Positions 14,968 to 61,700 of a DNA stretch of 64,000 bases are shown here, piece after piece; the stretch's first letter is position 1; each line of letters opens with the position of its first letter. The notes under the pieces were generated by a model. The model made no database searches. It was not told the origin of the DNA and saw nothing but the letters and a program-made list of their open reading frames with translations. The stretch spans positions 44,924,959 through 44,988,958 of the forward strand of contig OZ025252.1 in assembly GCA_964019135.1 (NCBI GenBank). The letters are read 5' to 3'. A program made the position numbers and the translations under genes. This DNA comes from Arenicola marina. Lineage: Eukaryota; Annelida; Polychaeta; Arenicolidae.

Positions 14968-17900
14968 GGATCAGGGATCTGTTACTTCTGCCCTGGAGGA
15001 CAGTAAACACCAACCTGTGGTGGATCAGGGATCTGTTACTTCTGCCCTGGAGAACAGTAAACACCAACCTGTGGTGGATCAGGGATCTGTTACTTCTGCC
15101 CTGGAGGACAGTAAACACCAACCTGTGGTGGATCAGGGATCTGTTACTTCTGCCCTGGAGGACAGTAAACACCAACCCGTGGTGGATCAGGGATCTGTTA
15201 CTTCTGCCCTGGAGGACAGTAAACACCAACCTGTGGTGGATCAGGGATCTGTTACTTCTGCCCTGGAGGACAGTAAACACCAACCCGTGGTGGATCAGGG
15301 ATCTGTTACTTCTGCCCTGGAGGACAGTAAACACCAACCTGTGGTGGATCAGGGATCTGTTACTTCTGCCCTGGAGGACAGTAAACACCAACCTGTGGTG
15401 GATCAGGGATCTGTTACTTCTGCCCTGGAGGACAGTAAACACCAACCTGTGGTGGATCAGGGATCTGTTACTTCTGCCCTGGAGGACAGTAAACACCAAC
15501 CTGTGGTGGATCAGGGATCTGTTACTTCTGCCCTGGAGGACAGTAAACACCAACCTGTGGTGGATCAGGGATCTGTTACTTCTGCCCTGGAGGACAGTAA
15601 ACACCAACCTGTGGTGGATCAGGGATCTGTTACTTCTGCCCTGGAGGACAGTAAACACCAACCTGTGGTGGATCAGGGATCTGTTACTTCTGCCCTGGAG
15701 GACAGTAAACACCAACCTGTGGTGGATCAGGGATCTGTTACTTCTGCCCTGGAGGACAGTAAACACCAACCTGTGGTGGATCAGGGATCTGTTACTTCTG
15801 CCCTGGAGGACAGTAAACACCAACCTGTGGTGGATCAGGGATCTGTTACTTCTGCCCTGGAGGACAGTAAACACCAACCTGTGGTGGATCAGGGATCTGT
15901 TACTTCTGCCCTGGAGGACAGTAAACACCAACCTGTGGTGGATCAGGGATCTGTTACTTCTGCCCTGGAGGACAGTAAACACCAACCTGTGGTGGATCAG
16001 GGATCTGTTACTTCTGCCCTGGAGGACAGTAAACACCAACCTGTGGTGGATCAGGGATCTGTTACTTCTGCCCTGGAGGACAGTAAACACCAACCTGTGG
16101 TGGATCAGGGATCTGTTACTTCTGCCCTGGAGGACAGTAAACACCAACCTGTGGTGGATCAGGGATCTGTTACTTCTGCCCTGGAGGACAGTAAACACCA
16201 ACCTGTGGTGGATCAGGGATCTGTTACTTCTGCCCTGGAGGACAGTAAACACCAACCTGTGGTGGATCAGGGATCTGTTACTTCTGCCCTGGAGGACAGT
16301 AAACACCAACCTGTGGTGGATCAGGGATCTGTTACTTCTGCCCTGGAGGACAGTAAACACCAACCTGTGGTGGATCAGGGATCTGTTACTTCTGCCCTGG
16401 AGGACAGTAAACACCAACCTGTGGTGGATCAGGGATCTGTTACTTCTGCCCTGGAGGACAGTAAACACCAACCTGTGGTGGATCAGGGATCTGTTACTTC
16501 TGCCCTGGAGGACAGTAAACACCAACCTGTGGTGGATCAGGGATCTGTTACTTCTGCCCTGGAGGACAGTAAACACCAACCTGTGGTGGATCAGGGATCT
16601 GTTACTTCTGCCCTGGAGGACAGTAAACACCAACCTGTGGTGGATCAGGGATCTGTTACTTCTGCCCTGGAGGACAGTAAACACCAACCTGTGGTGGATC
16701 AGGGATCTGTTACTTCTGCCCTGGAGGACAGTAAACACCAACCTGTGGTGGATCAGGGATCTGTTACTTCTGCCCTGGAGGACAGTAAACACCAACCTGT
16801 GGTGGATCAGGGATCTGTTACTTCTGCCCTGGAGGACAGTAAACACCAACCTGTGGTGGATCAGGGATCTGTTACTTCTGCCCTGGAGGACAGTAAACAC
16901 CAACCTGTGGTGGATCAGGGATCTGTTACTTCTGCCCTGGAGGACAGTAAACACCAACCTGTGGTGGATCAGGGATCTGTTACTTCTGCCCTGGAGGACA
17001 GTAAACACCAACCTGTGGTGGATCAGGGATCTGTTACTTCTGCCCTGGAGGACAGTAAACACCAACCTGTGGTGGATCAGGGATCTGTTACTTCTGCCCT
17101 GGAGGACAGTAAACACCAACCTGTGGTGGATCAGGGATCTGTTACTTCTGCCCTGGAGGACAGTAAACACCAACCTGTGGTGGATCAGGGATCTGTTACT
17201 TCTGCCCTGGAGGACAGTAAACACCAACCTGTGGTGGATCAGGGATCTGTTACTTCTGCCCTGGAGGACAGTAAACACCAACCTGTGGTGGATCAGGGAT
17301 CTGTTACTTCTGCCCTGGAGGACAGTAAACACCAACCTGTGGTGGATCAGGGATCTGTTACTTCTGCCCTGGAGGACAGTAAACACCAACCTGTGGTGGA
17401 TCAGGGATCTGTTACTTCTGCCCTGGAGGACAGTAAACACCAACCTGTGGTGGATCAGGGATCTGTTACTTCTGCCCTGGAGGACAGTAAACACCAACCT
17501 GTGGTGGATCAGGGATCTGTTACTTCTGCCCTGGAGGACAGTAAACACCAACCTGTGGTGGATCAGGGATCTGTTACTTCTGCCCTGGAGGACAGTAAAC
17601 ACCAACCTGTGGTGGATCAGGGATCTGTTACTTCTGCCCTGGAGGACAGTAAACACCAACCTGTGGTGGATCAGGGATCTGTTACTTCTGCCCTGGAGGA
17701 CAGTAAACACCAACCTGTGGTGGATCAGGGATCTGTTACTTCTGCCCTGGAGGACAGTAAACACCAACCTGTGGTGGATCAGGGATCTGTTACTTCTGCC
17801 CTGGAGGACAGTAAACACCAACCTGTGGTGGATCAGGGATCTGTTACTTCTGCCCTGGAGGACAGTAAACACCAACCTGTGGTGGATCAGGGATCTGTTA

Positions 17901-20206
17901 CTTCTGCCCTGGAGGACAGTAAACACCAACCTGTGGTGGATCAGGGATCTGTTACTTCTGCCCTGGAGGACAGTAAACACCAACCTGTGGTGGATCAGGG
18001 ATCTGTTACTTCTGCCCTGGAGGACAGTAAACACCAACCCTGTGGTGGATCAGGGATCTGTTACTTCTGCCCTGGAGGACAGTAAACACCAACCTGTGGT
18101 GGATCAGGGATCTGTTACTTCTGCCCTGGAGGACAGTAAACACCAACCTGTGGTGGATCAGGGATCTGTTACTTCTGCCCTGGAGGACAGTAAACACCAA
18201 CCTGTGGTGGATCAGGGATCTGTTACTTCTGCCCTGGAGGACAGTAAACACCAACCTGTGGTGGATCAGGGATCTGTTACTTCTGCCCTGGAGGACAGTA
18301 AACACCAACCTGTGGTGGATCAGGGATCTGTTACTTCTGCCCTGGAGGACAGTAAACACCAACCCGTGGTGGATCAGGGATCTGTTACTTCTGCCCTGGA
18401 GGACAGTAAACACCAACCTGTGGTGGATCAGGGATCTGTTACTTCTGCCCTGGAGGACAGTAAACACCAACCTGTGGTGGATCAGGGATCTGTTACTTCT
18501 GCCCTGGAGGACAGTAAACACCAACCTGTGGTGGATCAGGGATCTGTTACTTCTGCCCTGGAGGACAGTAAACACCAACCTGTGGTGGATCAGGGATCTG
18601 TTACTTCTGCCCTGGAGGACAGTAAACACCAACCTGTGGTGGATCAGGGATCTGTTACTTCTGCCCTGGAGGACAGTAAACACCAACCTGTGGTGGATCA
18701 GGGATCTGTTACTTCTGCCCTGGAGGACAGTAAACACCAACCTGTGGTGGATCAGGGATCTGTTACTTCTGCCCTGGAGGACAGTAAACACCAACCCGTG
18801 GTGGATCAGGGATCTGTTACTTCTGCCCTGGAGGACAGTAAACACCAACCTGTGGTGGATCAGGGATCTGTTACTTCTGCCCTGGAGGACAGTAAACACC
18901 AACCTGTGGTGGATCAGGGATCTGTTACTGCTGCCCTGGAGGACAGTAAACACCAACCTGTGGTGGATCAGGGATCTGTTACTTCTGCCCTGCAGGACAG
19001 TAAACACCAACCCGTGGTGGATCAGGGATCTGTTACTTCTGCCCTGGAGGACAGTAAACACCAACCCGTGGTGGATCAGGGATCTGTTACTTCTGCCCTG
19101 GAGGACAGTAAACACCAACCTGTGGTGGATCAGGGATCTGTTACTTCTGCCCTGGAGGACAGTAAACACCAACCTGTGGTGGATCAGGGATCTGTTACTT
19201 CTGCCCTGGAGGACAGTAAACACCAACCCGTGGTGGATCAGGGATCTGTTACTTCTGCCCTGGAGGACAGTAAACACCAACCTGTGGTGGATCAGGGATC
19301 TGTTACTTCTGCCCTGGAGGACAGTAAACACCAACCTGTGGTGGATCAGGGATCTGTTACTTCTGCCCTGGAGGACAGTAAACACCAACCTGTGGTGGAT
19401 CAGGGATCTGTTACTTCTGCCCTGGAGGACAGTAAACACCAACCTGTGGTGGATCAGGGATCTGTTACTTCTGCCCTGGAGGACAGTAAACACCAACCCG
19501 TGGTGGATCAGGGATCTGTTACTTCTGCCCTGGAGGACAGTAAACACCAACCTGTGGTGGATCAGGGATCTGTTACTTCTGCCCTGGAGGACAGTAAACA
19601 CCAACCCGTGGTGGATCAGGGATCTGTTACTTCTGCCCTGGAGGACAGTAAACACCAACCCGTGGTGGATCAGGGATCTGTTACTTCTGCCCTGGAGGAC
19701 AGTAAACACCAACCTGTGGTGGATCAGGGATCTGTTACTTCTGCCCTGGAGGACAGTAAACACCAACCCGTGGTGGATCAGGGATCTGTTACTTCTGCCC
19801 TGGAGGACAGTAAACACCAACCTGTGGTGGATCAGGGATCTGTTACTTCTGCCCTGGAGGACAGTAAACACCAACCTGTGGTGGATCAGGGATCTGTTAC
19901 TTCTGCCCTGGAGGACAGTAAACACCAACCTGTGGTGGATCAGGGATCTGTTACTTCTGCCCTGGAGGACAGTAAACACCAACCCGTGGTGGATCAGGGA
20001 TCTGTTACTTCTGCCCTGGAGGACAGTAAACACCAACCCGTGGTGGATCAGGGATCTGTTACTTCTGCCCTGGAGGACAGTAAACACCAACCCGTGGTGG
20101 ATCAGGGATCTGTTACTTCTGCCCTGGAGGACAGTAAACACCAACCCGTGGTGGATCAGGGATCTGTTACTTCTGCCCTGGAGGACAGTAAACACCAACC
20201 TGTGGT
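14968..20206. repeat. 54-bp minisatellite, 97 copies
   Basis: The unit contains GGATCAGGGATCTGTTACTT, CTGCCCTGGAGGACAG and TAAACACCAACCTGTGGT. The span is 5239 bp, which is 97 x 54 plus one base. The extra base is a C in the run at 18038-18040 and is the only indel noticed. Variation is nearly confined to CAACCT/CAACCC; rare changes are GAGAAC near 15051, ACTGCTG near 18929 and CTGCAGG near 18990. Units from about 15300 to 18030 look identical, while those after 18040 mix T and C variants. With 54 divisible by three, an 18-residue repeat stays open on +, but no in-frame ATG or gene context was found. Confidence 0.96.
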
Positions 20207-20976
20207 TTATCAGCTCATATAAAACCGACGTTTGCATAATGTGACAGGCGTGCGCCACGGGGACCTTGTTTCAACGACTCATGTCAGATTGTCGCTACCC
20301 GGGCTTCTGCTATATGCAAGCTTTCTTGTGGACGGAAGGCAGCCACAGCGAGAGCGAGGGTTAAGAGGGAGAGAGAGGGTAGGGCAGCGAGAGGGAGGGC
20401 GAAGTGAGTGCGATAGGCAGAGAGGTGCGTGGGTGTGTGGGTGTGTGGGGAAGGGAGGGGTGACCGCCTCCCCTGTGCCGGCGGAGGGTCACGGCGCCCC
20501 TGGGGACGGACCAATCACAGAGATGGAGAATGCCTCGCTTGCCGCCGGTATCGGTGGTAACCACGGTGTGGGGGCGGCACACCCTACAGAGAGAGCAGTT
20601 GACCGGGGCACGGATAGGCTGCGACTATGATGGTAGCCGTGGGTGCGGCACTCCCAGGGCTGTGACCTTCGCCTGCGTCACGGCAAAGGTGACCCGATCG
20701 CATCCCCGTGACGTCGGCACGTCAGGCCAATGTATTATTCACACATTCTGACGTGAATACACCGCTAGGATCGGTCAGCTGAAAGGTGCCGCCACCTAGC
20801 GACGAGCGGGCGCGGTGTGTTGTTTACAGCAGCTTGGAGTCGTGGTTATTGAACGGCTGTGTGGTACTGCTACCGACATGGACGGGGCACACCAGACACT
20901 CGGCTCGTAGCTGTGGAAGTGGAACAAAGACCTCGTGACTATCGTCTCTCCCGCACCGTGTGTTTACAGTCCGGTG

Positions 20977-21650: not shown

Positions 21651-21915
21651 ATGGAACTGCCCTTTGACCTCCACTCCAACAACAGTGGTCGGTCCCTGGT
21701 TTACCCTCACCGCCCGGGTCTGGCGCTTACCTACGTCAGCATCATCGGCGTCGCCTCCGTGGCCGGAACCTTCGGCAACATCCTCATCATCGTCGTCATC
21801 ATGACGTCATCGTCGGCCAGGGCTCACGCTCCGGCCGTCGGCAACATGTTCATCGTTAATCTGGCCTTGGCGGATATCGTAGTCACCGCGCTCATCAACC
21901 CCTTCAGCATTGTGG
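21651..21915 (+). CDS. GPCR exon 1: N-terminus, TM1, TM2
   Basis: This exon encodes residues 1-88 and the first base of codon 89. It ends ATTGTGG before GTAAGT, so the intron is phase 1. Exon 2 supplies GT to complete a glycine codon, and the TM2-TM3 linker reads smoothly through the join. The last 25 bases belong to the first unit of the 42-bp array, so this donor is only the first of a tandem series. The open frame itself continues to a TGA at 22137-22139. Confidence 0.85.
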
Positions 21916-24900
21916 GTAAGTCTGTCTGGTCGCTCATCAACCCCTTCAGCATTGTGGGTAAGTCTGTCTGGTCGCTCATCAACCCCTTCAGCATTGTAGG
22001 GAAGTCTGTCTGGTCGCTCATCTACCCCTTCAGTATTGTGGGTAAGTCTATCTGGTCACTCATCTACCCCTTCAGCATTGTGGGTAAGTCTGTCTGGTCG
22101 CTCTTCTACCCCTTCAGTATTGTGGGTAAGTCTATCTGATCACTCATCTACCCCTTCAGCATTGTGGGTAAGTCTGTCTGGTCGCTCATCAACCCCTTCA
22201 GTATTGTGGGTAAGTCTATCTGATCACTCATCTACCCCTTCAGCATTGTGGGTATGTCTGTCTGGTCGCTCATCTACCCCTTCAGCATTGTGGGTAAGTC
22301 TGTCTGGTCGCTCATCTACCCCTTCAGCATTGTGGGTAAGTCTGTCTGGTCGCTCATCTACCCCTTCAGCATTGTGGGTAAGTCTGTCTGGTCGCTCATC
22401 TACCCCACTACCTACACATCATTCAGCATTGTGTGTATAGCGTGTCTGCTCGCTAATCAACCCATTCTGTGGTGTAGGTAAATGTATCTGGCCGCTCATC
22501 AACCCCTTAGTGTCTGTGTAAATATCAGAAACAAATACGTCAACTATGCTTTGACCCAGACCGGAAAAAAGGGCGAACTAGTGCCTGATTGGTTCATATT
22601 AAACTATGTCTAAAGACCGTATTGTATGGCGATCGAGCGTACAGAAAATAAACGACGAATCTTTTGAGCTACATAAATACGTGTTAACGTTGCAAAGTTA
22701 CACTGGCTCCAAGTAACAATGAAGCCAGTGATTGCCTGGCATTACACCGCCTGGTGATTGCCTGGCATTACACCGCCTAGTGATTGCCTGGCATTACACT
22801 GCCTGGTGATTGCCTGGCATTACACCGCCTAGTGATTGCCGGGCATTACACCGCCTGGTGATTGCCGGGCATTACACCGCCTAGTGATTGCCTGGCATTA
22901 CACCGCCTAGTGATTGCCTGTCATTACACCGCCTAGTGATTGCCTGGCATTACACCGCCTAGTGATTGCCTGACATTACACTGCCTGGTGATTGCCTGTC
23001 ATTACACCGCCTAGTGATTGCCTGGCATGACACCGCCTAGTGATTGCCTGGCATTACACCGCCTAGTGATTGCCTGGCATTACACCGCCTAGTGATTGCC
23101 TGGCATTACACCGCCTAGTGATTGCCTGGCATTACACCGCCTAGTGATTGCCTGGCATTACACCGCCTAGTGATTGCCTGGAATTACACCGCCTGGTGAT
23201 TGCCTGGCATTACACCGCCTGGTGATTGTCTGTCATTACACCGCCTAGTGATTGCCTGGCATGACACCGCCTAGTGATTGCCTGCCATTACACCGCCTAC
23301 TGATTGCCTGGCATTACACCGCCTGGTGATTGCCTGCCATTACACCGCCTAGTGATTGCCTGACATTACACTGCCTGGTGATTGCCTGTCATTACACCGC
23401 CTAGTGATTGCCTGGCATGACACCGCCTAGTGATTGCCTGTCATTACACCGCCTAGTGATTGCCTGGCATGACACCGCCTAGTGATTGCCTGGCATTACA
23501 CCGCCTGGTGATTGCCGGGCATTACACCGCCTAGTGATTGCCTGGCATTACACCGCCTAGTGATTGCCTGGCATTACACCGCCTAGTGATTGCCTGCCAT
23601 TACACCGCCTAGTGTTTGCCTGGCATTACACCGCCTAGTGATTGCCTGGCATTACACCGCCTAGTGATTGCCTGGCATTACACCGCCTAGTGATTGCCTG
23701 GCATTACACCGCCTAGTGATTGCCTGGCATTACACCGTCTAGTGATTGCCTGGCATTACACCGCCTGGTGATTGCCTGGCATTACACCGCCTAGTGATTG
23801 CCTGGCATTACACCGCCTAGTGATTGCCTGGCATTACACCGCCTAGTGATTGCCTGGAATTACACCGCCTAGTGATTGCCTGGAATTACACCGCCTGGTG
23901 ATTTCCTGGCATTACACCGCCTAGTGATTGCCTGGCATTACACCGCCTAGTGATTGCCTGGCATTACACCGCCTAGTGATTGCCTGGCATGACACCGCCT
24001 AGTGATTGCCTGGCATTACACCGCCTGGTGATTGCCTGGCATTACACCGCCTGGTGATTGCCTGGCATTACACCGCCTAGTGATTGCCTGGCATTACACC
24101 GCCTAGTGATTGCCTGGCATTACACCGCCTAGTGATTGCCTGGCATTACACCGCCTGGTGATTGCCTGGCATTACACCGCCTGGTGATTGCCTGGCATTA
24201 CACCGCCTAGTGATTGCCTGGCATTACACCGCCTAGTGATTGCCTGGCATTACACCGCCTGGTGATTGCCTGGCATTACACCGCCTAGTGATTTCCTGGC
24301 ATTACACCGCCTGGTGATTGCCTGGCATTACACCGCCTGGTGATTGCCTGGCATTACACCGCCTAGTGATTGCCTGGCATTACACCGCCTACTCCATGTT
24401 GATTACTAACCACCGCTTTGACTTCGCTGTTTGCGCTGTACGGCTACGTCCATCATCAATTTTTACGAAAACCTTATGCCCAAAAACCTGGGAATCCCAG
24501 TCTGAGGTGTCTTATTCATCGGTCTTCGATCGGCATAAAGCTTTGGCAATTCAGCGATAGGCAAACAGTGCAATTGACTCAAACGTTGGTCATTCTCTTT
24601 CTCCTTAAATGGTTGAACAAAGAACGCGTTATTCGGGCTTACGATTTACCGCACGTCGGGGGCTAAAAGAGTCCGAGGGCATTTTCCTTTTCCGCGGACG
24701 TTAACTTCCTCCAAAGTCCACGTCCCTATGAAACGAACACACTACATTACAGAAAAATAATATCGCGAGGGAAAAATGAACTGAAGTCACACTTTGAGTC
24801 TTTACCATGGGCGATGGACCCGCATGCACTGTGATGGTCGAGTTGCCTTCCTTCCAATGCATTGCACCACTTCTCGGGGCTTCATTCCCAACGCCAACTA

Positions 24901-30900: not shown

Positions 30901-33900
30901 AAACCTTCCCTGCCTGGGGTCGCCAAACCTTCCCTACCTGGGGTCGCCAAACCTTCCCTGCCTGGGGTCGCCAAACCTTCCCTGCCTGGGGTCGCCAAAC
31001 CTTCCCTGCCTGGGGTCGCCAAACCTTCCCTGGCTGGGGTCGCCAAACCTTCTCTGCCATACGGCTATAGCTTTGGGATAACCATAAATGTAAATAAGAC
31101 TCACGACACGGGGCAGGTTTTAAATGCTCTAAGGTTCTACATGTATCTGATGACTTTATATAATATATTTTGTAAATCGTTCTATACATCTTAAGCTTTT
31201 GGATATTGAATTATGTTGCCCTATGTTACATGGCTCTGTTTGCTTTTCATTATCTTAATATGTTCCATGGATCTTTATATTGATTTATATTGCTCTCTGT
31301 GTTCTATGTTGAATTACATGGCTTCTATGTTCTGTTTATGTTGACTTATATTGCCCTTTGTGTTCTATATTCTCTGTATATTGAATTATGGTTCTCTTTA
31401 CGTTCGATGGCTCTTTGTATTGATATACTAGTCTAGTGTTCGTAGTAATAAGCGAAAGAAATAACAGTATGACCGTATTTTGTTTTATACGTCAAATAGT
31501 AGCAGGCAGAAGACATTGGGCAGAAATAACATCGATAATTATATTGACATAAATTGAGACCGGGAGCTACGGAATAACGGGACATAAATGTTAAGGATCA
31601 TTAAACCCTGTGCAATTATTGTGCATCCAGTACAGAATATTCAAATTGCGGCTAAAGCACGATATAAACGAATATCAGTCCAGTAAAATTAAGGCCCAAG
31701 CTCATACATTGATTGAGTAAAAAAAAAGGGTTGATTGAGTTTAAAAAAGGGGCTGTTTCCCGTCCGTTGTTCGTCATTTAACGTATTACTACTACCTTCA
31801 GTGGATAAAATCTGCCTGACGTCCTGGTTGGTCTATAGAATTGACTATACTTAACTATACTGTAAAATTGGATCAAAGATCAAAAATATCAAATCAATTC
31901 AAATAGGCAAGGTTCCCCGGGAGTTCGTACTCTTGCTACGGTCACCATGCGCGATAAGCACCCGAAAGCGATATTATGCCGCGGGATAAGGTGATAAGCA
32001 CCCAGCGGTTGTGTTGACACATGCGATAGCTTTGACACATCTAAGAGCGACGGCTGGATATTAATAGGTTCAAGGCGGCTGCTGCTGCCAATGGGCTCTT
32101 GCATGCCGCGGCATAGTGGGACAGACAGCCTCATTTTATTAGTATAGATAGAAGATAGCTATTGCCCCTCTGTGTTCTATATTATCTGTATATTGCATTA
32201 AAATGCCCGTCAATGTTTTATGGCTCTGTAAGTTCAATTATATTTCCCCCTATGTGTCATTGCTCTTTTGTTTTATATTTCGTGCCCCCCCCCCCCCCTC
32301 GAACCTAATCCGGAAGTCTGATCATTCGTCCCGTCTTGTGTTTAACACGGCGGTGTGTCAGGAGGGCTGGCGACATATACATGTTCAATATTTTGCGTGG
32401 GACGCAGTGGTCCTCGCCTTGCAATCTTCTAGTGATTAACTCCCAGCCTCGAGCATGTTTTTTTTGCCTGGCGATGTATTCAGTATTTTGCCGCTTAATT
32501 TCCAGCTAGCTAGCTGCCTACAGAATAATTCTACCCTCCCCCAGCGCCGCTTACTGACGATTTCCCTCCCTCTGCTCTACGTCAAATTTAACCATCAGAA
32601 TCATCCTTCATAGGAAAAAATTGAAATTGAAGTCCAAAATACCACTGTCTAGCATTTACAGTGATACTGGTACCGTACCGTACCAGACGAATTCGGTTTT
32701 GATTAATAGAAGCCATGTTTCTTTTCCAACTATCGAGTTCAATCGAGGTCAAAGACTTAAGGCGCTGTGAACTTTGACCCGTGTCATATTGAAATATTTC
32801 TAACCTTAACACTTGCATTGTGAGATTACGACAACGGAATTGTCCGTCGGAAAAAAATACAAAATTAAACCTAAACAGCGCTCGAAAACAATTCGTTACC
32901 CCAGAACCGTTGAAGTCAACAATGAGGTCGGCGGTTACGTGGGGCAGAGGTGATGTGAGGAACAAGCTCCCTTTTCTGGCATAGTGTGATTATTTAGTTA
33001 TTATTTATAGTTAGTAGTTATATTACGCCATTGCTCCTAAAATGCTGCAGTTTCATTTGCAGTGTTCTATAGTTGTACATAGCTCTACAAGGGCAAAGGC
33101 ACTGTGTGTTGGTGGCTCTACGTGTTCTTACTCATTCGCAATCAGTTGTTATTGGCTCAATTCGTTTTATTTCCTTGTGTCTGCACGAGAGAAGAGGGAT
33201 TTGGGGGATACCTTACAAAGAAATAGAGAAAACGACTTTAGTATTTACCTAATTTGGCTCTGGCTGGAACAAGTTGGATTTATTTCTTCAATAAATTACT
33301 ACATGCGGTGACAGTCTCAACGGGCGCGGAACCTTCAGGCCGGATCCCCCTGGCGGCAATAACCGACGCTCGGTGGTGATTTCATTTCCGGTTCCGGAGA
33401 TACTGTCGCTGGAAAGTCTCGCCAGATGCGGTATTGGACTGTCATAGAATCTCGCGTGACAACAGCTCAACGACTTTCTCAATTTGCAAATAATTGCTTG
33501 GGGACAGTCGGGTTACCCCGGCAACGAGATTGACCTTGAGGAAGGCGATTGAGACGCGACATGGACCACGTAAAGGTGAAGATGTCGCAAGACGCCTGTC
33601 GTATTCATTCAAAGACAATCCAAGATCCAGTTTCCCGGAGCCTGTATAATTCGCACCGGAAGTGGACGAGACGAGCGGTGCACCATAAAGTGACGTCATC
33701 AACATTCTTTTGTTTCACTCCGGACATTTGGTGACTTTCGTGGATCGTAAAGACCGCGTAGCTTGATGTATGGAAGCGATAAAACAACGCATCAATCTGA
33801 CGTACGAAAGCAGTAAAAAACATCAAAAGAAGAACTGACCGTCTAGGTAATAAAGCGTTTGCACTAAGGAACAAATTCAACAGATCACAGACCACAATTT

Positions 33901-36900: not shown

Positions 36901-39900
36901 CGTCCTAACTAACTCACCAGGCTAACGTCGTCAACAACTCACCAGGCTAACGTCGTCAATAACTCAACAGGTAAACGTCGTCAAAAACTCACCAGGCTAA
37001 CGCCGTCAATAATTCACCAGGATAACGTCGTCAATAGCTCACCAAGCTAACAACGTCAATAACTCACCAGGCTAATGTCGTCAATAGCTCACCAAGCTAA
37101 CGTCGTCAATAACTCACCAGGCTAACGCCGTCAATAATTCAAGGCTAACGTCGTTCAGTAACTCACCAAGCTCACTTCGTCAACAACTCACGAAGCTAAC
37201 GTCTTCAATAACTCACGAAGCTAACGTCTTCAATAACTCACCAGGCTAACGTCGTGAATAATTCACCGGGTTAACGTCGTGAATAACTCACCAGGCTAAC
37301 GTCGTCATTAACTCACCGGGCTAACGTCGTCAATAGCTCACCGGGCTAACGTCGTCAAAAACTCACCAGGCTAACGTCTTTAGTAACTCACCAAGCTAAA
37401 CGTCTTCAATAAGTCACCAGGCTAACGTCGTCAATAACTCACCAAGCTCACGTCGTCAATAACTCACCAGGGTAACGTCGTCAATAGCTCACCAGGCTAA
37501 CGTCGTCAAAGACTCACCAGGTTAACATCGTCAATAACTCACCCGGCTAACGTCGTCAGTAACTCAGCGAGCTAACGTCTTCAATAACTCACCAGGCTAA
37601 ATTCTTCAATAAGTCACCAGGCTAACGTCGTCAATAACTCACCAGGCTAACGTCGTCAGTAACTCACGACGCTAACGTCGTCAATAACTCACCAGGCTAA
37701 CGTCGTTACCAGGCTAATTGCGGTCGTTTGCTTCCATGTCTGCGGCTCCTTCCGTCATCTCCACATCCGGATCAAGGTCGATAATACCATCAGCCTCGTT
37801 AGGCGGACGTACCACACGGCTGTTAGGTCCCCGGATGAGGGTCGCCAAGGGTGGTCCCTCCAGTCTCGGGTCCCCGCCCCAGCCACTCCGTTTACCCCCC
37901 TCGTTATCATGGATGTTGGCGTCGTGAGGACGCCTGAAGGTCGGGGTTTGCGGGCGGCTCAGGTCTGCAGGTGCTCTCGAGGGTCTGTGTCAACTTGGAG
38001 CTTCCACAAGCCTTGCGGTGTCCAGCAAGGACACGGGAGTTGTTATTGGGTGTGGTGTGTGTGTGGGGGAGGGGGTTGAGCTCGATATGGCATTGGTTCG
38101 AGTGCGAGACGGGTTTATCTGAGTAAAAGTCTCCCATATATCCCGTTTGAGCCGCCTTTCGGCGGGGCATAGTGTAGGAATTGGAGATGGGCTAACGGCT
38201 GGGACAGAGCCGGGTATTGTCAATAAAGTAGCCATTGGAGAAGATTTCTCAATATTGGTTTCGGGTCGTAAACCGACCAAAGCCGTTCCCCTCTGTAATC
38301 TGTCTGTTCGCTAACCCGAACAGTCTTGTGTTAGACATTTCAGACGATTTCACCAAAACTATTTAAGAAAAAAAGACGTTTTCTTTGAAGTGTATAATAA
38401 CAGATCTAATGGATCTAGGAATTTGAAAGGAGGGATGTTTGGTTATGACCGTGAAGGGAAGGGGGATGCACATCTTAGATGGCATTGACTTTGCATGGAA
38501 TACGGCATTCTGCCTCAAAAAAAGGTTAACAGTTGTTAACATCGGGTAAGCCACTAAGCTAGTGCCAAGTCTAGATCATCCCGCTAACGGCTGATCATCG
38601 AGTTTGACACAAAAGCGTTCAATATATCAACTGAGAGAACGTTCGAGTGTGACTGCAGCAGGCACTGTGTCTGCTGTCTCACATGGCGTGAAAACAGAAA
38701 ACAACCTGTTTCTTTATGGCGATTGGACATTCTATCCAATGGGCAAAACTTCCCCGATAACGAGGGTCAGTACCACGCTGAATCAGACGTTTCTGGGGCT
38801 TCAGAGGGCAACAAGAGTGATGCGCCAGAAAGCAATAAGTCTCACTGCTCCACTCCTCACTGCTACCGCACGTGGGATTTTTGCATCGATCTTTGCCATT
38901 GCTGCAATGAACTGTGACTGTAATAGCCCACTACGGGTAGTGAATGGGCTGTACATGTCGCCCAGAACACATGCTTAGGGCCATGAGAAGTCGTGGTTTA
39001 CGAGTTATTGCTTTTTCCACACGAATGTCAGTTTTTTTTGCGGAATGTTCAAATAGAAAAATGTGATCTAATCGCAACTCTGATCCGTTATCTATTATCA
39101 TGGCGGGCAGGCCGAGTGGTTCTTGGTGGACGAGGGCTGAAACGCCGACCAGTGCTAAATATTATTTGACGATGACAGTTTCAATGGAGCTACTTTCTTA
39201 CCCGGGGCGCAGGGGGTGGGGGGGGGTGCCTTTTCCGATCTCCACGATTGGCGTCCATAAATTCCTGGAGATTTGCGATTACCTGTTGGCAAGTTTTTGG
39301 GGATCGTTATCCGTACAATTCCAGGTTCAACTATTTACCGCGATCCGTTATCCATTATAGCAGCGTATTCCTCGATATTCGCGATATCTTGGAGATCCTC
39401 ATCTTGGAGATTTGATATAGCTCTCTCTAATTCTTGGGGATTCGCGATCCAGAGGGGGTATCCCCCCCAGCATAAGATCTTACTGCAAAAAAAGTATGGG
39501 GAGTACGCACTGGACGTGGGCGTGTCCAGGGGGGGAGGGCGCACAGGGGGCACGTGGCCCCCTTTTAGAACCTAAAATATGTATGTGCCACCTCCCCCCC
39601 CCCCCTTTCAAATTCTGTGCCGCCTGGCCAGGGGTGGAGGCACAGGGGGCACGTGCCCCCCCCCCCCCCCCCTCTCCCCTTCTGACCCTAAAATATACCT
39701 TACCCTCTCTCCCTTTCAAATGGAGCATCACGGTCGCCTACGTCTTTGGCTTTTACGCGCATTTTTTATGTTTTTGTAGAAGAATTTATTAAGCTCCCCT
39801 TTCAAGAATATCTGCACACGCCCCTGCTTGAGCTATAGCACCGCTCCACCATTGACCCCGCCCACCGACGTCACGTGATCTTTACAGATTAAAGTATCCA

Positions 39901-45900: not shown

Positions 45901-47610
45901 TAGTTTTGTTGCCATATATGTGCGTGACGCACGGCGGGCATTGTTTTTACGTGGTGTCACGTGGTGCAGTGGCTGCTGCCGCCTGTAACCTATCGTTCAA
46001 AAATCCATCGAGAATTTGGGATCGTAGATTATTAAGCGACGCATGGGGACAAACACAAACGCTACTGATACTAAATAATTCAAAATCCTTTATTAGGAAA
46101 AATGTAGTAACCTTTATGTAAGCAATGACACTGCCTGCATGGCCGATAAAGGGTAAACAAAGTTACATAAATGTTGCATGATCACCTTTAGGTGGCGCTC
46201 TCCAAAACGCATTTACCGTATTTGACACATTATTATACTCCTTGTTAAATGACGATATTAATCTCATTCAGATTTTACTGACGTACGGAGGAGTGTAACA
46301 GAGATATCGTCATTCGCTGCCATGCTATATAAACGCTTCTGGTTTAGTTTTATCTCATCCTTTGTCGTGAATAATAAATTCATCTTCCATAAATTTTATG
46401 ACATTACCCACACCATTATTTTAGCTTATACGTGCTATACGCACTGACGTAGCATTAGGCCTGTTAATATCCGCCTCCATATATATATATATATATATAT
46501 CTGTATATCGTTTCAGGTGTGCTCATAGGGGAGGAGTTTTTCTCGCGCCACCCCGGGCTGTGCCCAGTCCTGGCCGGCGTGTGCGTGGTCACGTGCACGG
46601 CCTCCCTCCTGTCCATCGGCGCCATCAGCCTCAACCGCTACGTGTACATCTGCCACCGAGAGGCGTACACCCGGGCGTACACCCGGCGTAACAGCCTCCT
46701 CGTGTGTCTGGCCATCTGGACGACGGGTGTCTTGGTGGATCTGCCCATGGTGCTGGGCTGGGGCGCCCACGGCTTCGACAACAAGAGCCACAAGTGTATC
46801 TGGGACCGGATGTACGATCACTCCTACATCGTCTTCTTCGCCGTCGGTGTGATAGTCACTCCGCTGTGCGTCATCACAGCCTGCTATTGCCTCATCTTCC
46901 ACAGAATAGTGGTCACCAAGATGAAGTTGGTCCATTACGCCAACGCTAACTCGGAACCCCCGACCAAATGGAGCGTGTTGTGGAAGAGTTTATCCCAGGC
47001 CAAGACCATGTTTTTCATTTTTGTGGCCTTCACGCTGTGTTGGACGCCCTACGCGATCGTCATCGCGGTGGACTCGGACGACTCATTCCCGCTCGAGGTT
47101 CACTTGATGAGCTCGATGATCGCACACCTCCACGCCAGCCTCAACTTCATCCTGTACGGGGCCACCAATAACCGCTTCCGCACCGCCTACCGTAACATCC
47201 TCTTCTGCTGCGTGCAGTCCGCGCGCCGTGACGTCTCAGGTGTGCACCGCTCCTGCAACACTGGCCGTGCCCATGGCAACGAACCGCGCGGGGTGTCCGC
47301 CGTCCACACGAACATGCAAGCGAACGAGCACACCGGTAACTTCTCAAGCAATCCTTTCGAATTCGCGTCACTTCACCATCATTCTCGCCATCATATCTAC
47401 GACAACTGTTGCTGCAACGGAATTTGGACTAAATGCCGAAAACATGAACCGCCTGCCATTCATCAAGGTGAATCGCTGTTAAATACGGGATCTATCAGGT
47501 CAGGGACACATGAACATAACCGGAGGACGCTCTCGGCACCACAAGGCCATGTTGTAATCCAGCAACACGTCGGTGTTAGTCTAAACGGGTTTGCGAGGAC
47601 TACGTGCTAA
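21651..47610 (+). CDS. Melatonin-receptor-like class A GPCR (two exons)
   Basis: Joining 21651-21915 to 46517-47610 gives a 452-residue seven-transmembrane receptor. The ATG has A at -3 and G at +4. A sequon N-N-S lies near residue 10. TM1 (about 26-51) has GN at 42-43; TM2 (about 65-88) has LALAD with Asp75. Cys104 and Cys182 can form the conserved TM3-ECL2 disulfide. TM3 ends NRYVYICH (128-135) instead of DRY, TM6 has CWTP (263-266), and TM7 has NFILY (298-302) instead of NPxxY. NRYxYICH and NxxxY are melatonin-receptor family traits. The tail of about 140 residues is Cys- and His-rich. His292 sits at the retinal-lysine position, so it is not an opsin. The ligand is unproven, and GPR84- or moody-like relatives are alternatives. 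Confidence 0.85.
21891..22394 (+). repeat. 42-bp minisatellite made of exon end plus splice donor
   Basis: Twelve units start at 21891, 21933, 21975 and so on every 42 bp. Each contains CAACCCCTTCAGCATTGTG or CTACCCCTTCAGCATTGTG followed by GGTAAGTCTGTCTGGTCG. Donor GT positions are 21916, 21958, 22042, 22084, 22126, 22168, 22210, 22252 (GTATGT), 22294, 22336 and 22378. The third unit has lost its GT (GGGAAGT at 21999-22005). Because 42 is 14 codons, all donors are in one frame and phase until TGA at 22137. Units 1, 2, 4, 5 and 6 are thus usable without a stop. Degenerate remnants continue to about 22500. Confidence 0.93.
22728..24390. repeat. 26-bp minisatellite, 64 copies
   Basis: The unit contains GTGATTGCCTGGCATTACAC and CGCCTA or CGCCTG. 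The span divides into 64 units with essentially no indels. Variation is by substitution: CCTAG/CCTGG, GGCATT/GACATT/GTCATT/GCCATT and CATTACA/CATGACA. It lies in the GPCR intron about 800 bp after the exon. Confidence 0.95.
24391..25374. other. Intronic unique DNA, no gene seen
   Basis: Unique sequence between two arrays in the GPCR intron. There is a CT-rich patch at about 25150-25200. Open frames are short and show no domain. Confidence 0.45.
25375..25560. repeat. C-rich low-complexity tract
   Basis: Nearly 190 bp of CCCCA/CCCCC phrases interspersed with AGC and ACC. The minus strand carries many G-runs and could form quadruplexes. Short proline-rich open frames here reflect composition. 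Confidence 0.7.
25619..28197. repeat. 20-bp minisatellite, about 129 copies
   Basis: The unit is TCTGAGAGGGAGGCAGGAGC. The register never slips across the whole 2.58 kb, so all variation is by substitution: GAGCTC/CAGCTC/GATCTC at the junction, GGCAGG/GGCGGC/GGGAGG/GGCTGG inside, and GAGGGG. Three minus frames are stop-free, giving open frames up to 904 codons rich in leucine, proline and serine. These are consequences of the unit and not a gene. Homopurine runs could favour triplex structures. Confidence 0.95.
28270..28617 (-). mobile_element. MITE-like non-autonomous DNA element, copy 2
   Basis: This 348-bp copy lies in reverse orientation to the element at 7354-7676. Its ends are GGGCGCATTTCTTTGG and CCAAAGAAATGCGCCC, a 16-bp perfect inverted repeat, flanked by AGA on both sides (28267-28269 and 28618-28620). 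The different flanking triplets of the two copies support independent insertions. It lies 73 bp beyond the 20-bp array. No transposase is encoded. Confidence 0.8.
28682..28765. repeat. Short 24-bp tandem repeat, about 3.5 copies
   Basis: The phrase AAATCAAAACCAGTAATTTC plus AGAG is repeated three times with a partial fourth copy. The last units carry CCAGAAATTT and ATAAAAACC changes. It is a small array in the GPCR intron. Confidence 0.85.
28766..30077. other. Intronic unique DNA, no gene seen
   Basis: Mixed AT-rich intronic DNA. A short CT microsatellite lies near 28852-28866. Open frames are under 100 codons without a recognisable domain. Confidence 0.45.
30078..31058. repeat. 24-bp minisatellite, about 41 copies
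   Basis: The unit contains AAACCTTCCCTGCCTGGGG and TCGCC. With 24 divisible by three, one plus frame reads an eight-residue KPSLPGVA repeat, and two minus frames are also open. Variants are CTACC, CTCCC, TTTTCTG and one GGCCCCC near 30365. It lies in the GPCR intron and no promoter, start context or splice context supports translation. Confidence 0.95.
31195..32290. repeat. Decayed AT-rich tandem repeat split by an insertion
   Basis: From 31195 to about 31430, phrases such as GTGTTCTATGTTGAATTA, TATATTGCCC and TTACATGGCTCT recur with heavy divergence. The same vocabulary (TCTGTGTTCTATATTATC, TATATTGCATTA, TTTTATGGCTCTG) resumes at about 32168-32290. The intervening segment of roughly 730 bp lacks it, so a later insertion seems likely. 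No gene. Confidence 0.5.
31431..32157 (-). mobile_element. Possible Helitron-like insertion
   Basis: This segment interrupts a decayed tandem repeat. On the minus strand its start near 32145 reads TCTATACTAATAAAATGAGG followed by CTGTCTGTCC, which resembles 5' ends described for Helitron/Helentron elements. It has no TIR and no obvious target duplication, consistent with that class. No Rep/helicase coding was found. An 81-codon minus frame at 31889-32134 shows no known domain. Class and limits are tentative. Confidence 0.3.
32598..32982 (-). mobile_element. Dispersed repeat family 2, copy A
   Basis: This segment is the inverted homologue of 39969-40362. Shared landmarks on the minus strand are CTCACATCACCTCTG, GGGGTAACGAATTGTTT, ATTCCGTTGTCGT, TTGACCTCGATTGAA, ATTAATCAAAA and GAATTCGTCTGGTACGGTAC. 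It spans about 385 bp with no clear TIR or target duplication. A 125-codon minus frame covers it but matches nothing recognised. It may be a non-autonomous element or part of a larger one. Confidence 0.6.
32983..34150. other. Intronic unique DNA, no gene seen
   Basis: Unique DNA in the GPCR intron. Frames of 60-110 codons exist at 33288-33937 but overlap each other on both strands and show no domain. Confidence 0.45.
34151..37713. repeat. 25-bp minisatellite with kilobase-scale duplication
   Basis: The unit contains CAATAACTCACCAGGCTAAC and GTCGT. Divergence between neighbours is high, but blocks repeat at long range. Sequence from 34441 recurs from 35935 (offset 1494), and that from 35885 recurs at 37329 (offset 1444). 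The 50-bp drop equals two units missing from the second copy near 36680. A smaller block of about 240 bp, starting CAATCACTCACCAAGC near 34544, recurs near 34783. The array therefore has nested higher-order structure. Confidence 0.93.
37714..38280 (-). pseudogene. Degenerate coding-like fragment, unknown family
   Basis: One minus-strand frame runs from about 38280 to TAG at 37714-37716 with a single internal TGA at 37990-37992. This gives about 188 sense codons. The upstream part is Pro/Thr/Ser-rich and contains CPAERRLKRDIWETF. The downstream part is basic and ends in an acidic stretch (DGIIDLDPDVEMTEGAADME) before NDRN-stop. The composition looks protein-like and resembles the end of a retroelement Gag or ORF1, but no motif proves it. 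It sits in the GPCR intron on the opposite strand, directly beside the 25-bp array. Confidence 0.35.
38588..38917 (+). pseudogene. Cys-rich open frame without a start codon
   Basis: A frame of 109 codons runs from just after a TAA at 38585 to TGA at 38915-38917 and contains no ATG. Cysteines cluster at the start (FECDCSRHCVCC) and end (HCYRTWDFCIDLCHCC), separated by an acidic, Ser/Asn-rich middle. It could be an exon fragment, a remnant of a mobile element or chance; another plus frame is also open here. No family is assigned. Confidence 0.2.
38918..39968. other. Intronic DNA with C/G-runs and short direct repeats
   Basis: GATCCGTTATCTATTA near 39083 recurs as GATCCGTTATCCATTA near 39342. 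Two related segments each contain CACAGGGGGCACGTG (39540 and 39640) followed by long C-runs and CCCTAAAATAT-like text. The right edge near 39813 reads CACACGCCCCTG, the reverse complement of a CAGGGGCG start typical of some hAT elements, but no matching left end was found. Confidence 0.35.
39969..40362 (+). mobile_element. Dispersed repeat family 2, copy B
   Basis: The inverted partner of 32598-32982, in plus orientation. It carries CAGCAGAGGGAGCTCG, TTCACATCACCTCTG, GGGGTAACGAATGGTTT, ATTCCGTTGTCGTC, TTGACCTCGATGGAA and GAATTCGTCTGGTACGGTAC. Divergence from copy A includes small indels, so both are old. No coding capacity is evident. Confidence 0.6.
40363..41364. other. Intronic unique DNA, no gene seen
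   Basis: A short TCCTA repeat lies at about 40369-40386, and G-rich and C-rich patches near 40650-40690 and 41032-41060. No supported coding segment. Confidence 0.45.
41365..44140. repeat. 21-bp minisatellite with nested duplications
   Basis: The unit contains CACAGTTGTTGAGGTAGTCG and C. A 147-bp block (seven units) marked by CAGTGTTTGAGATATTCG starts at 41414, 41561 and 41708. The same marker at 41939 recurs at 42882, and GTTGTAAGGTAGTC at 42151 recurs at 43094; both give an offset of 943 bp, showing one large duplication. Seven codons per unit keep several frames open on both strands (Val/Ala/Thr-rich on +, Asn/Cys/Gly/Tyr- or Thr/Ala-rich on -). No gene context supports translation. Confidence 0.95.
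44141..46478. other. Intronic DNA before GPCR exon 2
   Basis: G-runs occur near 44354-44367, C-rich text near 44940-45010 and a C-run near 45263-45276. The phrase AATAAATAATGGATTCTTAA near 45284 recurs as AATAAATAACGGATTCTTAA near 45392. No supported exon or RNA gene. Confidence 0.45.
46479..46500. repeat. (AT)11 microsatellite near an acceptor
   Basis: Eleven AT dinucleotides end 16 bp before the acceptor AG of GPCR exon 2. The space normally holding a long polypyrimidine tract is only CTGTATATCGTTTCAG, so this acceptor has a short pyrimidine run. Confidence 0.9.
46517..47610 (+). CDS. GPCR exon 2: TM3 to C-terminus
   Basis: The exon follows an acceptor ending GTTTCAG at 46516 and runs to TAA at 47608-47610. 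It carries TM3 (about 104-127), NRY, TM4 (about 149-170), ECL2 with Cys182, TM5 (about 191-216) with Pro204, TM6 (about 252-273), TM7 (about 284-304) and helix 8 starting NNRFRTAYRNIL. No further introns are needed. An antisense open frame at 46513-46935 is a shadow of this exon. Confidence 0.9.
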
Positions 47611-58743: not shown

Positions 58744-61700
58744 CTGGAGACACGGGCGGGGTGGGGGTGGAGAGGGGGGCAGACAGCGGCGTTAAACCAG
58801 GAATCGAATGACGTTAACTTAAAACACGGGTGAACTGCAAGATTTATGTGTGACTTCTATAATGCGTGCATTGTGTCATATTGCGTCTAAATGATACACC
58901 ATGCCAAATATGGCATACAATGTTCATTCGCGAAACGACGAACATGCACTCTCGAGTATTGATTCACCTTTGGCTGGTGTTTAACACAGGCGGATATGGA
59001 CAGCCATTTTCGCATATTGCGAATAATTCAATGCAAAGACACAGGTCCCAAAAACATTATGGGATGTCGGAGGGTAAACTGTAATTAAGAATAGGTACGC
59101 ACACTAGTATTATGGGCATTATTGACATATAGAAGGAGAAGCAGTTCAGTTTACCTTTTCTCGATTATTATTATCCGGCGCATTAAGACGTGAAAGCGGA
59201 TAATCTTACCTTATTTGCCAGAGACGCAAAGTTGTAATGCGGTTCAAACATATGTGGAGCCAGACCGAATGCGGCCTGGAAAAACGCCCTCGCCTGAAAC
59301 AAATAAGAAACACAAGATGGCTATCAAACAGCCAGCCACCTCTCGTTGGAACCACTACTACCGCCATACCACGTTGCAGTGATCCACTTATTATTGATAT
59401 TAGTTTTACAGGAAAACCCAGTGTCGATGTGTGTGTTGCCGGCGCAATCGCAGGCCTGCAATTCAGATAAGCAAACCTGCCCCCCCCCCACCCCCCACAC
59501 ACACCCGCACAGACTGTGCGTGGTGATTGAGCCGGCAAAACCGTCCCGATGTTTAGCCCTTACAAAGGCTATAAAGGCCTGACCTAGTCTGCTGCGTTGT
59601 AGTTTCTTTCTCAACGCATCATCACTACAAGCCAATTAGCAAACCTTATCAAAGCAAGTCTCTACCGCAGCGAGTCAACGTGCCATTCGAGACACCCTAA
59701 GTACAGATATTACACCTCTGCTGTCCTTCTGTGGTATTTGAACATGACATCCCTTCCAATCTATAGTCATTTACGGTAAGGGCTTATCGGAGGCCTTTCG
59801 TACCATTTCGACTCGTCCCTTGCGCATCTCGAGCACGCCGAGATTGTTGTAGGCCTCGGCGTGGTCGTTGTTGGCGGCCAACGCCAGGCGGAAGCACTGG
59901 TACGCCAGGTTAAGATCGCCGATACCCTGCAGGACATGACGACCACGTGGTCACAGCATTGACACATTAACGGTAAGAAGGTGCTTTAATAACTGGCATT
60001 AAATTATAATGTAATTATCTTTAACAAAGGTCGTAATATAACCATACATAAAATGCGATAAATAATTCGATAGCATAAAGATATAAATTATTCACAAAAT
60101 AGATGAATAAGATATTGAATTGTTAAAGAAAACCTATGAAAATAACATTGCCACTAGATTGGAAGCTGACCTGCGCCACGTGACCGATGTTGTACCACAC
60201 ATCCCCCACCACCTCCTCGCTGGCAAGGGCAAGCGCCCTCTCGAAGCAGGTCAAGGTCATGTCATACTGCTGGGCGTAGAAGCAGCTGAGGCCGAGGTTG
60301 GTGAACAACTCTGCGTTGTACACACCCATTTGGAGTAGTCTCCTGAAGCCACATTGCCACAACCATGAACATCGGTGATTCGTCCATTTTAGCGCGAAAT
60401 ATTGTTTCAATAATAATAATAATAATATAGCGCACATATTACTCACACCTAGCATTTACCCCGAAAGCCATTTCCTGGAAGAGGGATCATAAATTATTGA
60501 TTATATAGCAATCGTGAAGCAGGTGACGTGTATAAATTGACGAGAATAGCTCACGTGGCGAGTCTACAAGGTAACTACCGGTAAATCATATAGTTGCTCC
60601 ACTCTTACACATACAAGTAAGTGGACTTGTGAGCTTCAACCAACAGATCGAGGCCAACCTGTAGAACTTGAGTGCGATCTCCGGCTGGTCGGTGTAGAAG
60701 TAGTGGGTGCCTATGGAGGCTATGGCCTCGATACTCATGTTGTCAGCATGTAACACGGACTTGTAGTACGTCACAGCGCTGTCCAAGTCCTTCAACCCCT
60801 GTTAGGATACATTTTTCACAAAGTCAACACATTCCTTGTAAGGACAAATATCTACAATATATACATATTACGCTAACTATTTATCCCTTAACAATGATCC
60901 TAAGATACGGTTCTGCCGCACTACGTGAGCGTACGGGCACTGGACATCAATGCATATCAACATCAGGCATAGTAAAGTATGAGCGATAATACAGCGGAAT
61001 GACCCAGAACTTGAGCCACGTGGCTTCACACCTCGTATATGCGGGCGATGGAGGTGAGCAGTGAGGCCTCCCCCGGGAACTTCTCCAGACCCTCCTTGTA
61101 GAGGTCCACGGCGGAGAGCGGCTGGTCCAGGCGCACGTAGACCTTGGCCAAGTACAGGTAGGTATCAACCATCTCTTGCTGCTTCAGCGCGGACTTAAAC
61201 TGCTTCTCGGCATCTCTGTACATGCCAAGTCTGTAAAAAAAAAAGAGTTCAACTTTGCCTGATTTGTAAAAATTCCTTTGTAGTAGTGAGTGCAAGAGTT
61301 TACATGTTGTGGAAGTGTACATTTTTCTATGTCTTGCCACAAAAAGCTTGCCACTAGAGAGCAATTGATGAATGAATAGAAATAAATGACGAGATATAGA
61401 AGTATTGGTCGTGACTACCGATAGTCGCTAGGCAATGAACACACACTCTACCTGTAATAACATTTGCCGAGCTGCACTTTCCACCACCAGTCTTTAAACT
61501 GACAGGCCTCCGTTGCATTGGAAGCCAAATCTAACGCCTGAAAGCAGAATAGAAGCATATCCATCAGAGAAACTACAGACATTATACTATATCTGGCAAA
61601 GGACAACATTCCCTTACTGGAGTCACGTTCCCTCAAGTCTATCTTGGAGTATCCTGGGAATTTCCTAATTCATTAAAATACGACAAAGACACTCCATGGC

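Follow-up and report, generated by a model that had tools for sequence, protein, structure and literature searches.

A minisatellite with multiple splice donors was reportedly found in human IFI6 (6-16) by Turri et al. in 1995; its repeat unit is 12 bp long. Two downstream repeat units of IFI6 act as donors, and three mRNA species are made (PMC4526556). Tandem repeats that lie across exon–intron boundaries have been described in amphioxus under the name of 'mirages', with units of 10–72 bp in Adh3 and of 150–160 bp and 157 bp in the globin genes BflGb6 and BflGb9, respectively (PMC3087553). The BflGb6 mirage has six units on one haplotype and three on the other (PMC3087553), and somatic instability has been reported for the Adh3 mirage (PMC3087553, PMC3902484). 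On the basis of the Adh3 data and of RT-PCR on the globin genes, the authors suggest that regular splicing is unaffected, and they add that mirage copies might serve as cryptic sites (PMC3087553). According to a second paper, aberrant mRNAs are not generated by the Adh and TnC mirages, and the same is inferred there for the imperfect repeats of PGBD5 (PMC3902484). Minisatellites known as variable internal tandem repeats modify gene structure in duplicated human genes and in some instances activate cryptic splice sites; these repeats are found in recent human paralogues, and an array of intact donors like that reported here is not described in the available portion of that source (PMC2812944). 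DDX3Y has a minisatellite in its 5' exon, which is not a donor array (PMC3039753).

Analysis of a 64,000-base window, the whole stretch of DNA considered here, revealed an array of this kind in a receptor gene. The type of array is already known from the amphioxus mirages and human IFI6, and the present case is a tandem donor array in a GPCR gene. Among the matches listed from the open-licence literature, none concerns a GPCR with such a donor array, which is no proof of absence. A sequence-only reading had placed twelve copies of a 42-bp unit at 21891–22394 on the forward strand, and our analysis reproduced both the placement and the composition, each of the 12 copies consisting of 25 exon bases, a donor and intron bases. 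The same array appears in the TRF table at 21889–22406 as 12.3 copies with 93% matches. We number the copies from the exon side, so that copy 0 would comprise the authentic exon end and its donor.

The array resembles the amphioxus mirages of Adh3, BflGb6, BflGb9 and TnC, with which PGBD5 has been compared: the unit crosses an exon–intron boundary and so multiplies a splice site, and splice signals survive in many of the copies while being lost from others; homogenisation within the cluster, described for the mirages, may also have occurred here (PMC3087553, PMC3902484). The 42-bp unit moreover falls inside the 10–72-bp range given for Adh3 (PMC3087553). Unlike the amphioxus cases, the 5' splice site of a receptor gene is here repeated 12-fold and in frame; RT-PCR and haplotype lengths are reported for the amphioxus arrays. 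As in IFI6, a minisatellite provides several donors; the unit is 42 bp here compared with 12 bp in IFI6, and use of the repeat donors is reported for IFI6. Since the IFI6 repeat donors are used, use of later donors in the present array is possible.

The coding part of exon 1 (21651–21915, forward strand) runs from Met1, encoded by the ATG at 21651, to TM2 and ends in phase 1. That of exon 2 (46517–47610, forward strand), immediately preceded by TTTCAG, encodes the remainder of the receptor and contains the stop codon. Joining the two gives a protein of 452 residues that matches the Pfam family 7tm_1 with a score of 133.7 bits, against a cut-off of 30.5, over the full extent of the profile (1–260 of 260), and the predicted gene product is a class A (rhodopsin-family) GPCR. 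Such a receptor, together with a TTC8/BBS8 exon elsewhere in the window, suggests that the DNA is that of an animal. Within the best 60 of 624 matches in the PDB, the top match was melatonin receptor 1B (E = 5.4e-31) and the next the alpha-1A adrenergic receptor (E = 7.3e-30). Because these two matches are close, we term the predicted protein melatonin-receptor-like only and claim no orthology to MT1/MT2. From the frame, the donor and the fit to the family, described below, we infer that exon 1 ends at 21915, immediately before the donor at 21916. Two features of the exon 2 region may be recorded here. A (TA)10 run at 46480–46499 lies just 5' of the acceptor, with little pyrimidine tract in between, and a small in-frame coding repeat at 46662–46690, made of 2.5 copies of a 12-bp unit, reads AYTRAYTR just past the NRY motif.

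The array itself is far beyond anything expected by chance. Pairwise, its copies differ at 0–8 positions. Copies 0 and 1, on the exon side, are identical, as are copies 4, 6, 9, 10 and 11, and two copy types alternate, with copies 3, 5 and 7 of one type and copies 4, 6 and 8 of the other, producing an 84-bp sub-pattern. In BflGb6 the cluster boundaries are described as escaping homogenisation (PMC3087553), in contrast to the identity of the exon-side copies here. On the intron side the array continues into a degraded tail of about two diverged copies (22395–22508, forward strand), which was located by local alignment to the unit; the tail aligns with a score of 104, compared with at most 29 for 200 mononucleotide shuffles and 20 for the upstream flank, and the alignment requires one insertion of 15 bases and another of a single base. 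Both the tail and the 84-bp sub-pattern had escaped the sequence-only reading. The alternating types, the identical copies and the degraded intron-side tail are as expected of array turnover, and the alternation in copies 3–8 makes it probable that some of the array was built up 84 bp at a time. Each copy also contains an acceptor-like CCCCTTCAG 8 bases upstream of the donor, at 21899–21907 for example; a micro-exon of 8 bases, or splicing inside the array, is therefore conceivable.

Repeats are prone to misassembly, and the draft of one amphioxus mirage was apparently misassembled (PMC3087553), which raises the question of whether the copy number is an assembly error. Several copies carry private differences and the array is merely about 0.5 kb long, both of which speak against such an error, and we regard it as most unlikely. 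The five identical copies are those whose number is least certain.

Tandem arrays make up 34,118 of the 64,000 bases of the window (53%), so it is unsurprising to find an array over a splice site. When the 22 merged array blocks were placed randomly in 20,000 trials, the donor was spanned, with at least 10 bases on each side, in 54% of them, and either the donor or the acceptor in 79%. Only 56 of the 1359 coding bases lie inside arrays, so overlap with an exon edge is less common than the random trials would suggest. Overall, no special cause is needed to account for the overlap of array and exon. The large arrays in the window have units of about 14–54 bp, and one of them extends over 5.2 kb (54 bp × 97; 14968–20213). 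The receptor intron holds a second minisatellite, at 22727–24391 (26 bp × 64), which starts about 220 bases past the degraded tail.

Nor does the in-frame character of the repetition call for selection, since 7 of 15 unit lengths, hand-picked from the TRF table with the present array included, are divisible by 3. Constraint on the donors was not seen: positions −3 to +6 are variable at 3 of 9 sites, compared with 6 of 33 elsewhere in the unit (Fisher p = 0.37), in what is a weak test with 12 related copies. Selection on the coding sequence was likewise not significant, 4 of 9 variable sites being synonymous in the frame of the exon against 29 of the 126 possible changes to the consensus unit (p = 0.13), and this test is equally weak for the same 12 related copies. 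Stops are present in the array.

The explanation that we consider probable is that the array is a neutral boundary-spanning minisatellite resembling the amphioxus mirages, with copy 0 functional and the mRNA made mainly from the donor at 21916. A 42-bp stretch that happened to cover the boundary of exon 1 and intron 1 would have been duplicated in tandem to found the minisatellite, which slippage or unequal exchange may then have extended into the intron, some of the growth occurring in steps of 84 bp. Copy 0 would have remained the functional end of the exon, the later copies being by-products whose donors are intact but mostly unused. The first donor, adjoining unique exon sequence, would thus give rise to most of the mature mRNA and to a receptor of 452 residues, and occasional use of later donors would yield either truncated messages or receptors enlarged by 14-residue modules.

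The donor, TGG/GTAAGT, is kept unchanged and in phase 1 in 10 of the 12 copies; some, but not all, of the copies have therefore lost the signal. The donor at 22000 is destroyed (GGAAGT) and that at 22252 is altered (GTATGT). The unit length of 42 is a multiple of 3, which keeps every copy in phase 1. The first intact donor is at 21916–21921. Four more in-frame donors, at 21958, 22042, 22084 and 22126 (together 21958–22131), lie ahead of the first in-frame stop, a TGA within the array at 22137–22139, and another five, at 22168, 22210, 22294, 22336 and 22378 (22168–22383), are downstream of it, all on the forward strand. When the donors at 21916, 21958, 22042, 22084 and 22126 were joined by script to 46517, products of 452, 466, 494, 508 and 522 residues were obtained, and the six unit positions past the stop gave 162 residues each. 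The sequence-only reading had listed the same five GTAAGT donors as being in phase 1 and before the stop, had given these five lengths for their in-frame splicing to 46517, and had noted that the third donor is destroyed and that later copies follow the stop; as a description of the sequence, all of this proved correct.

That reading had gone on to propose, while marking donor use as an inference, that the array could yield a set of receptor isoforms. The in-frame joins on which the proposal was built are real in the sequence, but the isoform set is unsupported, and it is the 452-residue form that fits the family best. With the C-terminal tail removed, the forms with 0, 1 and 5 modules were scored against 7tm_1, and they reached 135.0, 122.7 and 121.2 bits, respectively, the last of these in two stretches. 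The spacing between the conserved Asp of TM2 and the Cys with which TM3 begins is 28 residues in the first-donor form, a value near the 26 counted by hand in the melatonin receptor 1B row. As the form without modules is the best fit of the three scored, the first-donor product is likely to be the normal receptor. The scored longer forms appear to depart from the family, which does not of itself prove them to be dead.

A functional generator of splice isoforms, in which the choice of donor adds 0, 1, 3, 4 or 5 of the 14-residue modules after TM2 and copy number polymorphism alters the set, would be served by the four extra intact in-frame donors ahead of the stop, whose predicted U1 pairing equals that of the first, and it has a parallel in the three mRNA species that human IFI6 makes with its downstream repeat donors (PMC4526556). 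The modules would, however, lengthen the TM2–TM3 link, with the reduction in receptor fit seen in the 1- and 5-module forms; half of the ten intact donors sit past the stop; the weak tests above revealed constraint on neither donors nor coding; and in-frame repetition requires no selection. We consider this explanation improbable. An elaborated version, in which copy number fixes the isoform set, the five equal donors are chosen by tissue or allele, modules inserted where TM2 ends extracellularly change the response to ligand and the copies past the stop cut output, is in our judgement quite improbable.

For the neutral minisatellite, what has to be considered is why the first donor should prevail. 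The 10 GTAAGT donors have the same predicted pairing with U1, −10.3 kcal/mol. We also considered RNA accessibility as a cause of donor choice and rejected it: the predicted mean unpaired probability at the 12 unit positions ranges from 0.25 to 0.50, being highest at 22126 (0.50), and the value of 0.38 at 21916 lies unfavoured within this range. With the 10 donors equal in U1 pairing and accessibility not favouring 21916, the local signals give no reason for the first to be preferred. Moreover, when equal donors compete, the choice often falls on the intron-proximal one, an outcome that in this gene would lead to a truncated message and that counts against predominant use of 21916. In human DOK7, SRSF1 reportedly moves donor choice toward the intron-proximal site (PMC5585400).

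The same preference lends itself to another interpretation, namely that the intron-proximal donors at 22210–22378 are often used, leading to a premature stop and a degraded message, and that copy number tunes output through this leak or switch. Five intact donors do lie past the stop. Under the 50–55-base rule of nonsense-mediated decay, use of the last donors would leave the stop at 22137 at least 70 bases before the junction, and the message would probably be degraded; a distance of at least 70 bases holds for the donor at 22210 and all later ones, and use of 22168 would place just 28 bases between stop and junction. Set against this is the suggestion of the amphioxus authors that mirage arrays leave regular splicing undisturbed (PMC3087553, PMC3902484), and we hold such a lowering of expression to be unlikely.

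Suppression of polyadenylation by U1 has been described (PMC3826338, PMC6946686). The array might accordingly be viewed as a ten-site landing pad for U1 at the start of the 24.6-kb intron, guarding the long transcript from premature polyadenylation. Among the 1655 GTs in 21651–46516, the top predicted U1 score is shared by the 10 array donors and a site at 38546, so that 10 of the 11 best predicted sites are in the array, and the intron from 22395 to 46516 contains 12 AATAAA and 10 ATTAAA motifs. U1 protection probably has a limited range, however, and its reach would leave most of the intron uncovered; nor was constraint seen on the donors. This role is very unlikely.

The array offers a clean natural test of spliceosome choice among ten identical donors that differ in position, and each in-frame choice ahead of the stop would show in the length of the protein. 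If use of the first donor proves to be near complete, exon context, and not donor strength, decides. It would also be a further boundary-spanning minisatellite of the sort from which exons may lengthen and introns be gained, a role proposed for such arrays on the basis of the amphioxus globin genes (PMC3087553).

Elsewhere in the window, no match to a described RNA family reached the gathering score, and the open frames at 32588–32989 (reverse strand), 38595–38978 (forward) and 37663–38079 (forward) each matched no Pfam family. In a further open frame, at 61026–61427 on the reverse strand, residues 58–132 match a PDB chain of TTC8/BBS8 (Bardet-Biedl syndrome 8) with an E-value of 2.3e-31.
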